This document shows positions 2,039 to 7,429 of a DNA stretch of 64,000 nt, one piece after another. Both the position numbers and the translations under genes were made by a program. Every line of letters begins with the position of its first letter. Position 1 is the first letter of the stretch. Under the pieces are notes generated by a model. It was not told the origin of the DNA and did not search any database. It worked only from the letters and a program-made list of their open reading frames with translations. The DNA comes from Planctomycetota bacterium (lineage in GTDB: Bacteria; Planctomycetota; Phycisphaerae; UBA1845; UTPLA1): assembly GCA_015654675.1 (NCBI GenBank), contig JAATGM010000017.1:124001-188000 (forward strand), read 5' to 3'.

Positions 2039-3715
2039 CTAGCGCGGAATCTTGGCCCCACGCTCCCCCGCCACCTGCTTCGCCTTCTCGTAGCCAGCGT
2101 CCACGTGCCGAAACAGCCCGAACGCCGGATCACTCGTCAACACGCGCTCCAGCCGCCGCGCCGCCTCAGGCGTGCCATCGGCGACAATCACCATACCCGC
2201 ATGCAGCGAATAGCCGATGCCCACGCCGCCGCCGTGGTGGTAGCTCACCCAGCTCGCCCCGCATGCCGTGTTCGCCAGTGCATTCAGGATCGGCCAGTCG
2301 GCGATCGCGTCCGACCCATCCAGCATGCCCTCGGTCTCGCGATTCGGCGACGCTACCGAGCCGCAATCGAGATGATCGCGCCCGATCACGATCGGCGCCT
2401 TCACCTTCCCCGTCCGCACCAACTCATTGAAGGCAAGACCGGCCTTCGCGCGCTCGCCATAACCCAGCCAGCAAATCCGCGCCGGCAATCCCTGGAACGC
2501 CACGCGCTCGCCGGCGAGTTTGATCCATCGCGCCAAGTGCGCCTTCTCAGGAAACAACTCCAGAATCGTCCGGTCCGTCACGGCGATATCCGCCGGATCG
2601 CCCGAGAGCGCCACCCACCGAAACGGCCCGCTTCCCTCGCAGAATAACGGCCGGATGAACTCGGGCACGAAGCCCGGGATATCAAACGCATTCTTGACGC
2701 CCGCCTCTTGCGCCCGCGCCCGAATGTTATTTCCGTAGTCGAACGTGACCGCCCCCGCCTTCTTCAAATCCAGCATCGCCTGCACATGCCGCGCCATCGA
2801 CTCAAACGCCAGCTTGGTGTATCGCTCCGGGTCGCTCATTCGCAGTTGCAACGCCGCGTCATACGAAATCTGGTGCGGAACGTAGCCATTGAGCGGGTCG
2901 TGCGCGCTCGTCTGGTCGGTGACGATGTCGGGCGCGATCTTGCGCTTGACCAGCTCCGGCAAGACATCGGCCGCGTTTCCAAGCAGCCCGACCGATAGCC
3001 CGCGCCGCGCCTTGCGCGCTTCATCGAGCCAGCGCAGCGCCTCATCCAGCGATTCGCTCGCCTTATCGAGATACTTCGTCTCCAGCCGCCGCTCGATCCG
3101 CCGCCGATCGACCTCAACGCACAGGCAGGCCGCGTTGTTCATCGTCGCCGCCAGCGGCTGCGCCCCGCCCATGCCGCCCAGCCCGCCCGTCACGATCAGC
3201 CGTCCGGCCAGGTCGCCGCCAAAGTGCTTGTCGCCCGCCGCCGCAAACGTCTCGTAAGTCCCCTGCAGAATCCCCTGCGTCCCGATGTAGATCCAGCTGC
3301 CGGCCGTCATCTGGCCGTACATCGTCAGCCCCAGCGCCTCCAGCCGGCTGAACTCGTCAAAGGTCGCCCACTTGGGAACGAGATTCGAGTTCGCAATCAG
3401 CACGCGTGGCGCATCGGCATGCGTCCGCAACACCCCCACTGCCCTACCAGACTGCACCAGCAGAGTCTCGTCGTTCCCGAGCTCGCGAAGTGCCCGCACG
3501 ATCCGATCAAAATCGGGCCACGATCGCGCCGCCTTCCCGCGCCCGCCATAGACAATTAGCTCGTCGGGCTTCTCGGCCACATCCGGGTCGAGGTTGTTGT
3601 GCAGCATCCGCAATGCCGCTTCCTGCAACCAACCCTTGCACGAAAGTTGCAGCCCACGCGGAGCGTGAACCACCCGCGCCCCCGCCGATTTCAAAACCGG
3701 TTCAGTAATAGCCAT
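2039..3715 (-). CDS. hutU: Urocanate hydratase (urocanase)
   Basis: The protein is 558 residues, the normal length. It converts urocanate to 4-imidazolone-5-propionate, the second step of histidine breakdown, with tightly bound NAD+ used as an electrophile. Visible signatures are the glycine-rich [10 protein letters not shown] (177-186), the family motif [10 protein letters not shown] whose Cys415 is the family's active-site cysteine, and the C-terminal [18 protein letters not shown] and [13 protein letters not shown] blocks. No hutH, hutI or hutG lies nearby, so the rest of the pathway must be elsewhere. It lies 66 bases downstream of the SelW-like selenoprotein gene on the same strand, with a hairpin between them. 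Confidence 0.97.
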
Positions 3716-3781: not shown

Positions 3782-4018
3782 TTACGAATTGATAATCTTC
3801 TTCTCAATGATCCCGACGATCTCGCGATACTGCGGAAACCGCCCGGACTCGTGCTTGCTGTAGATCTTCGTTCCATCGACGACGACGTCAAAAATCCCGC
3901 CACCGCCCTTGATCAGCTCCACCTGCACCTTGTCCTTGCCAAAGTGCTCCACCAATTCGGCCGCCAGACCGGTGGCCTGAGGGGTGTAGTTTCACTGTAC
4001 GCAGTAGGTGATCTGCAC
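3782..4018 (-). CDS. SelW-like Rdx family selenoprotein (CVQU redox motif, in-frame UGA)
   Basis: Reading the TGA at 3992-3994 as selenocysteine gives a 78-residue Rdx (SelT/SelW/SelH) protein: MQITYCVQU near the N-terminus, then a helix (GLAAELVEHFG), a beta region ending GGGGIFDVVVDGTKIYSKHESGRFPQ, and a last helix ending IINS before TAA. The C-x-x-U pair replaces the usual C-x-x-C and the remaining fold pattern (GxFEV..DGxxI..K...G.FP) is intact beyond the UGA, which argues against a pseudogene. The family are small thioredoxin-fold redox proteins of uncertain substrate. A SECIS-like hairpin follows the UGA. The start is uncertain: GTG 4018 is the only in-frame start after an upstream stop, while an ATG at 4025 with a good GGAG site is one base out of frame. 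No sel genes are in the window. Confidence 0.8.
3959..3977 (-). promoter_or_regulatory. Candidate bacterial SECIS element
   Basis: Starting 15 bases after the UGA, GGCC pairs with GGCC, then an A.C mismatch, then CC pairs with GG, closing a GGUCU loop. Length, position and the GGUCU apex resemble the classic E. coli fdhF element that binds SelB. It lies inside the coding sequence, as expected for bacteria. The fold was drawn by eye. Confidence 0.6.
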
Positions 4019-4204
4019 CTTCATTGCACTCTCCATTTATTCGCGTTCTGCACGGCCGACCCTGACCGCCGCTCGTTCTGATCGTAGCGAACGCCCGCAG
4101 GCGTCGCAACGCGGGCCGCACTGGAGCGGCGGGCCGATCGACCCGATAATACTCGCGGGCCGCACCGCGCGGATTTCACCGCCGTCGCCCATCGGAGCGC
4201 ATGC

Positions 4205-5521
4205 ATGAAACTCGCGGTAGTAGGCACCGGCTACGTCGGCCTCGTCACCGGAGTCTGTCTCGCCGACACCGGCAACGACGTCCATTGCGTCGACATCGAC
4301 CGCGCCAAGCTCGAAAAGCTCAAGCGCGGCGAATCCACCATCTTCGAGCCCGGCCTCGCCGACCTGCTCGCCTACAACCTCGCCGCCAAGCGGCTCACCT
4401 TCACCGACGACATCGCCGCCGCTGTTCGACACGCCGATGTCATCTTCGTCGCCGTCGGCACGCCGCCGAGCGACGACGGATCGGCCGATCTCTCCCAAGT
4501 CGAAGCCACCTGCCGCGCCATCGCCCAGCACGCCCCCGGCCCACGCATCGTCGTCACCAAATCCACCGTTCCCGTCGGCACCGGCGCCTGGGCCGAGAAG
4601 CTCATGGCCGGCCTCTCGAAGCACAAGCTCACCGTCCTCAGCAACCCCGAGTTCCTCAAAGAGGGCTCGGCCGTCGACGACTTCCAGCGACCCGACCGCA
4701 TCGTCATCGGCAGCGAAGACCCGGCCGCGTCCGCCGTCATGAAAGAGCTCTACGAGCCCTTCGTCCGAAACAAGCGGCCCATTCTCATCGTCCGCCGCGC
4801 CGCGTCGGAAATGATCAAGTACGCCGCCAACTGCTACCTCGCCACGCGCATCAGCTTCATCAACCAGATGGCCGAGCTGTGTGGCCGCACCAGCGTCGAT
4901 ATCGACGAGGTCCGCGTCGGCATCGGCTACGACGAGCGCATCGGCTTCCAGTTCCTCTACCCCGGCATCGGCTACGGCGGAAGCTGCTTCCCCAAGGACA
5001 TTCCGGCGATGATTGCCGTCGGCCGCGAGGCGGGCGTCGAGATGTCCATCCTCGACGCGGTGCACAAACTCAACCAGCGCCTGCCCACCATCCTTCTCGA
5101 AGACGCGAAGAGCTACTTCAAGGGCTCGCTCTCGGGCCGCACGTTCGCCGTCTGGGGCGTCGCCTTCAAGCCGCGCACCGACGACATCCGCGAAGCCCCC
5201 GCCATCAAAATCATTGACGGACTGCTCGCGGCCGGCGCGACAGTCCGCGTCCACGACCCTAAGGCCCTGCCCCACGCCCGCGCGAAATACGGCAGCCGCA
5301 TCCAATGCCTCGACGACGGCTACGCCGCCCTCGATCGCGCCGACGGACTCTTCATCTGCACCGAGTGGAACGAATTCCGCTCCCCCGACTTCGCGAGAAT
5401 CCGATCGTCGCTCAAGCAGCCCGTCATCTTCGACGGCCGCAACGTCTTCTCCGGCGAACTGATGCGCCGCCACAACTTCGACTATTACTCCATCGGCCGC
5501 CCCCCCATCCTCCGCGCCTGA
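4205..5521 (+). CDS. ugd: UDP-glucose 6-dehydrogenase
   Basis: The protein is 438 residues. It oxidises UDP-glucose to UDP-glucuronate in two NAD+-dependent steps, feeding extracellular polysaccharide or lipid sugar synthesis in the cytoplasm. Visible features are the N-terminal Rossmann motif GTGYVG (7-12), the SNPEFLKEGSAVDDF block (146-160), the central helix with Lys205, and the catalytic cysteine C261 in GYGGSCFPKD, followed by the C-terminal UDP-binding domain (WGVAFKPRTDDIREAPA). The ATG at 4205 is preferred over the one at 4201 because it starts MKLAVVGTGYVG directly. It is divergent from the selenoprotein gene. No linked glycan cluster is visible here. Confidence 0.96.
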   Translation: MKLAVVGTGYVGLVTGVCLADTGNDVHCVDIDRAKLEKLKRGESTIFEPGLADLLAYNLAAKRLTFTDDIAAAVRHADVIFVAVGTPPSDDGSADLSQVEATCRAIAQHAPGPRIVVTKSTVPVGTGAWAEKLMAGLSKHKLTVLSNPEFLKEGSAVDDFQRPDRIVIGSEDPAASAVMKELYEPFVRNKRPILIVRRAASEMIKYAANCYLATRISFINQMAELCGRTSVDIDEVRVGIGYDERIGFQFLYPGIGYGGSCFPKDIPAMIAVGREAGVEMSILDAVHKLNQRLPTILLEDAKSYFKGSLSGRTFAVWGVAFKPRTDDIREAPAIKIIDGLLAAGATVRVHDPKALPHARAKYGSRIQCLDDGYAALDRADGLFICTEWNEFRSPDFARIRSSLKQPVIFDGRNVFSGELMRRHNFDYYSIGRPPILRA

Positions 5522-7068: not shown

Positions 7069-7415
7069 GGGGGCGAAATGGTTTCGACCGGGCAAGTTGA
7101 CGGAGATGTGGCGTGCCGAGGTTGTCAGGAGGCCTCGTTAAACCCCTGGCAAATTGCTAAGTGGCAACACTTACGCCCTTGCTGCCTAACTAGCGCAGCA
7201 CGTCGAACCGCCAACGCCTGCTAGGTGGTAAGACGCAATTAGCAGGCTGGTTTCCAAGCGCCGCCCGGCCGCAAGGGAACGAGAAAACAGCTGGGCTGGT
7301 CCCGCCAGGAGCTTGTCGACCGGCGCCCGGCGGGATGACGACAAACGATCGACTATGCACGTAGAGGCCTCTCCTGAAATGCCTTGGGACGCGGGTTCGA
7401 TTCCCGCCGCCTCCA
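7069..7415 (+). ncRNA. ssrA: Transfer-messenger RNA (tmRNA)
   Basis: The 5' end GGGGGCGAAATGGTTTCGAC and the 3' end GCGGGTTCGATTCCCGC plus CGCCTCC-A are the standard tRNA-like ends; GGGGGCG pairs with CGCCTCC with one G-U pair. The CCA tail is not encoded. The tag reading frame ends GGC AAC ACT TAC GCC CTT GCT GCC TAA (7163-7189), giving a proteolysis tag ending NTYALAA; the resume codon is probably the GGC at 7163. tmRNA with SmpB frees ribosomes stalled on broken messages and tags the product for proteases. smpB is not in the window. The gene stands alone between unrelated genes. Confidence 0.95.
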
Positions 7416-7429
7416 TTCTCGAACACCGC

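Follow-up and report, generated by a model that had tools for sequence, protein, structure and literature searches.

An in-frame TGA in a planctomycete selW-like gene and the evidence that it encodes selenocysteine

The locus considered here raises a simple question: does a TGA within an otherwise complete minus-strand reading frame mark the end of a damaged gene, or does it specify selenocysteine (Sec)? The frame lies in a stretch of 64,000 nucleotides of planctomycete DNA (the window), on contig C30 of a source assembly of 4.93 Mb that is 96% complete. In the established bacterial mechanism SelB, carrying Sec-tRNA(Sec), binds a stem-loop in the message and Sec is inserted at UGA. The comparisons described below indicate that the gene, selW, is almost certainly a real bacterial selenoprotein gene in which the UGA at codon 11 is decoded as Sec.

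The selW gene and its product

The features of the locus, in window coordinates, are as follows.

2039..3715, minus strand: urocanase (HutU), 558 residues, downstream of selW
3782..4024, minus strand: selW-like (Rdx family) selenoprotein gene, from translation, family matches and relatives 45-65% identical
4024-4022 and 3784-3782, minus strand: selW start ATG and stop TAA, from translation
3959..3977, minus strand: bacterial SECIS, GGCCACC-GGUCU-GGCGGCC, with one A.C stem mismatch, from folding, conservation and covariation
3966..3970, minus strand: apical loop GGUCU, in which G 3969 is invariant and U 3968 near-invariant in relatives
3992..3994, minus strand: in-frame TGA, read as selenocysteine, supplying the second redox residue of C-V-Q-U
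4030..4038, minus strand: Shine-Dalgarno-like AAATGGAGA, core GGAG, upstream of the selW start
4205..5521, plus strand: UDP-glucose/GDP-mannose dehydrogenase, 438 residues, divergent from selW

The product has 80 residues, and its single in-frame TGA is residue U11. With TGA written as U it reads MKVQITYCVQUNYTPQATGLAAELVEHFGKDKVQVELIKGGGGIFDVVVDGTKIYSKHESGRFPQYREIVGIIEKKIINS. The redox motif, Y-C-V-Q-U, occupies residues 7-11, and Y7, C8 and residue 11 are invariant in the alignment. When Cys was substituted for U, the protein passed the curated family cut-offs, with matches on both sides of the TGA: Pfam Rdx PF10262 (77.2 bits, cut-off 22.6), TIGR02174 (61.6 bits, cut-off 34.2) and NF041051 (90.6 bits, cut-off 88). 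It also belongs by sequence to the same family as the solved Cys-type Rdx proteins 2fa8, 2oka, 2ojl, 3dex, 2obk and 2p0g (E 2e-12 to 1e-7). The chains of these proteins, at 103-108 residues, are longer than SelW, and 2fa8 and 2oka, the two shown as alignments, have Cys at the Sec position of SelW. A preliminary description of this DNA had read the minus-strand frame as a complete Rdx protein whose second redox residue is specified by TGA and had called for alignment to SelW/Rdx proteins; translation, the three family profiles and the solved structures bear out that reading. Its coordinates, 3782-4025, are right at the stop end and wrong at the start, since the ATG begins at 4024 and position 4025 gives the wrong frame.

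No second Rdx gene was found in the source genome. GGAG- or GGAGG-like sites lie 5' of the selW start in most of the relatives listed. The dehydrogenase gene also adjoins selW in five other loci (L019, L020, L024, L028 and L031), and the urocanase gene was not beside selW in the other loci examined. Elsewhere in the window there is a tmRNA gene (7069-7418, plus strand, 166 bits); the minus-strand open reading frames that overlap it are probably spurious.

Conservation of the TGA and of the stem-loop

SelW matches numbered 101 and were distributed over 95 of 297 related genomes. The TGA was retained in 100 of them and none had Cys at that codon. The exception is a diverged paralogue (L097, G016:C676:11399-11608), in which the redox motif reads IIYRRVPDFEQ, both Cys and Sec having been lost. 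A script read 58 of the selW genes past the TGA, and in these the protein stays intact. The preliminary description had named a plain stop in close relatives, with decay of the downstream sequence, as evidence against recoding; what the relatives have is the TGA followed by a preserved protein. The SelW protein of one relative (G003, contig C134) is encoded identically in WYBU01000140.1, from Planctomycetaceae bacterium PLA4. Five genomes (G006, G008, G011, G014 and G015) each have two Sec-type selW copies, one near the type in the window and the other near a type found elsewhere in the order.

Across phyla, selW was sought as a DNA pattern combining the C-x-x-TGA motif with the SECIS apex. 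This found at least 120 stretches in named bacterial genomes of many phyla, including Planctomycetota, Acidobacteria, Gemmatimonadetes, Deltaproteobacteria, Poribacteria and Verrucomicrobia, among others. Of 80 stretches read through, 78 carry on as Rdx proteins; the remaining two either enter masked bases (L116) or are ended early by a stop (L127). A search of contigs with a Cys-containing profile found no selW relative, since the patterns drawn from it required Cys where selW has TGA, and a search of plasmids gave no match.

The first base of the hairpin is the 15th to follow the UGA, and the loop is GGUCU, as first described. It shares with the SECIS of Escherichia coli fdhF an apical GGUCU loop not far 3' of the UGA; in selW the distance is greater by about 3 bases, and the stem has no clear counterpart to the bulged U. 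Among 57 distinct sequences the loop consensus is [AG]GU[CU]U, with the G present in 57 and the U in 56. Two facing wobble positions in the stem co-vary, the pair being C-G in 51 sequences, G-U in 4 and U-A in 2, without a mismatch. The stem pair that follows them is mostly G-C or A-U; the window and three relatives have A.C there (4 of 57), and most relatives pair. Across relatives the SECIS is retained through compensatory changes. A SECIS model built from 22 selW sequences, that of the window among them, matches the window at 3994-3953 (54.8 bits, E 1e-12). This model did not find the hairpin of selD, which differs in sequence from that of selW.

Selenocysteine decoding in the source genome

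The inference that this organism decodes Sec, and the statement that absence of selB and tRNA-Sec would count against it, came with the preliminary description. The source genome has the full set: selA, selB, selC and selD. The tRNA-Sec gene (selC) is on contig C11 (67.4 bits) and is called tRNA-SeC, anticodon TCA, by ARAGORN; selB (311 bits) adjoins selA (518 bits) on C48, and selD is on C1 (376 bits). The encoded SelB has the C-terminal winged helix, the SECIS-binding domain. Among the matches listed, twenty genomes with SelW lack a strong tRNA-Sec match; selA was found in 16 of these, and none of the five with a completeness of 90% or more is without it. In the order as a whole, SelW and a strong tRNA-Sec match did not co-occur significantly among the matches listed (p 0.1), because most members have both; as a strong match was defined by a score cut of our choosing, this test is supportive only.

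Further candidates were sought family by family, so that their count is a lower bound. The selD gene itself has an in-frame TGA (L054 1531-1533, G000:C1) at the catalytic position, A-N-C-A-G-U-A-G-K, followed by a hairpin of six pairs, and SelD is probably itself a selenoprotein in this genome. In a thioredoxin-like protein (L228, G000:C50:151604-151957) TGA stands at the first redox Cys, W-G-F-W-U-G-G-C. In a peroxiredoxin-like protein (L229, G000:C50:34174-34551, minus strand) it stands at the first Cys of the motif, RGHWUMSC, and is followed by a strong hairpin. The source genome is therefore likely to encode at least four selenoproteins: SelW, SelD and the thioredoxin-like and peroxiredoxin-like proteins. 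The best formate dehydrogenase alpha subunit (L057, G000:C44:22556-24559) has Cys at its active site, N-C-S-R-Y-C, and no tRNA selenouridine synthase exceeded the cut-off. The Sec trait thus seems to be kept without a Sec-containing formate dehydrogenase or selenouridine synthase.

One window taken alone would not distinguish recoding from a point mutation or a sequencing error, and the TGA could on that footing be a true stop, or an error of assembly, in a Cys-type Rdx gene that is either defective or wrongly sequenced. The same codon is TGA in 100 of the 101 matches from 95 independent assemblies, with an intact protein downstream and a SECIS apex held at wobble positions, and this conservation already refutes the explanation, to which we assign next to no probability. 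Read-through of UGA as another amino acid, by a change of the code (to Trp, for example) or non-specifically, would likewise yield the full protein. This is extremely improbable in a genome that has a dedicated tRNA-Sec with SelA, SelB and SelD, and in which the TGA codons of the SelD, thioredoxin-like and peroxiredoxin-like genes fall exactly at redox Cys sites; the Cys found at the corresponding site of 2fa8 and 2oka also argues against it.

Decoding as Sec could also proceed through another element, with the hairpin a by-product of GC content and of conservation of the residues A-T/A-G/S-L-A/V. The folding energy gives this some room: in the window it is unremarkable against dinucleotide shuffles (z about -1), and although it is better than 99.2% of synonymous recodings, the median p across relatives is only 0.10. 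Against these values, the mean z relative to synonymous recodings is -1.45 at the hairpin and -0.12 elsewhere in the same genes, and versions of the hairpin slid along the sequence as controls pair far less. In a subset of 22 sequences, none of 500 shuffles equalled the observed pairing or covariation score. The near-invariant U of the loop is a synonymous wobble position, free to change, yet the loop glycine is GGT in 22 of 22 cases and the loop serine AGT in 34 of 34, codons that in the window account for 14% of Gly and 7% of Ser, respectively. Amino-acid conservation is not an explanation of the covariation at the wobble positions, and a by-product origin is very unlikely. Comparison among relatives, and not folding energy in the window, identifies the stem-loop 3' of the UGA as a bacterial SECIS.

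If selW is decoded in this way, SelB with Sec-tRNA(Sec) and GTP would bind the stem-loop just 3' of the UGA and deliver Sec to the ribosome, giving the full SelW of 80 residues. Without selenium or SelB, translation would terminate at the UGA, leaving only a stub of 10 residues. The product would be a small thioredoxin-fold (Rdx/SelW) oxidoreductase with a C-x-x-U selenenylsulfide centre that probably serves to reduce thiols or substrates linked to glutathione. We infer Sec insertion, fold and redox role alike.

Relation to known selenoproteins and significance

Abundant bacterial SelW-like proteins containing Sec have been on record since 2005 (PMC1088965, PMC2398784); among bacterial selenoproteins reported from ocean metagenomes, the SelW-like kind is the most abundant. 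By definition a bacterial SECIS is a stem-loop that closely follows the UGA and has G in a small apical loop, and the hairpin in the window has this form (PMC1088965). The planctomycete protein shares with the bacterial SelW-like selenoproteins (PF10262, TIGR02174, NF041051) its length, the C-x-x-U, GG-F-[DE] and FP motifs, the TGA at the second redox position, and the hairpin with a loop guanosine directly after the UGA. Nothing of substance sets it apart; the cited literature does not discuss the planctomycete lineage with SelW, and a search for work on selenoproteins in Planctomycetota or Phycisphaerae found nothing published on the matter.

Family, motif, SECIS and machinery were all known before, and this gene adds one more well-supported example. 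Gene finders that do not decode Sec would lose or truncate selW. The complete Sec trait is documented here in a planctomycete that has, besides SelW, three or more selenoprotein candidates. No exchange of Sec for Cys was seen across 95 genomes, and for that reason Sec may be strictly required for the reaction of SelW. We suggest, tentatively and as the less probable case, that the SelW of this planctomycete lineage is tied to Sec, and that in genomes like the present one, with formate dehydrogenase in the Cys form and no recognisable selenouridine synthase, SelW may contribute to retaining the Sec machinery.
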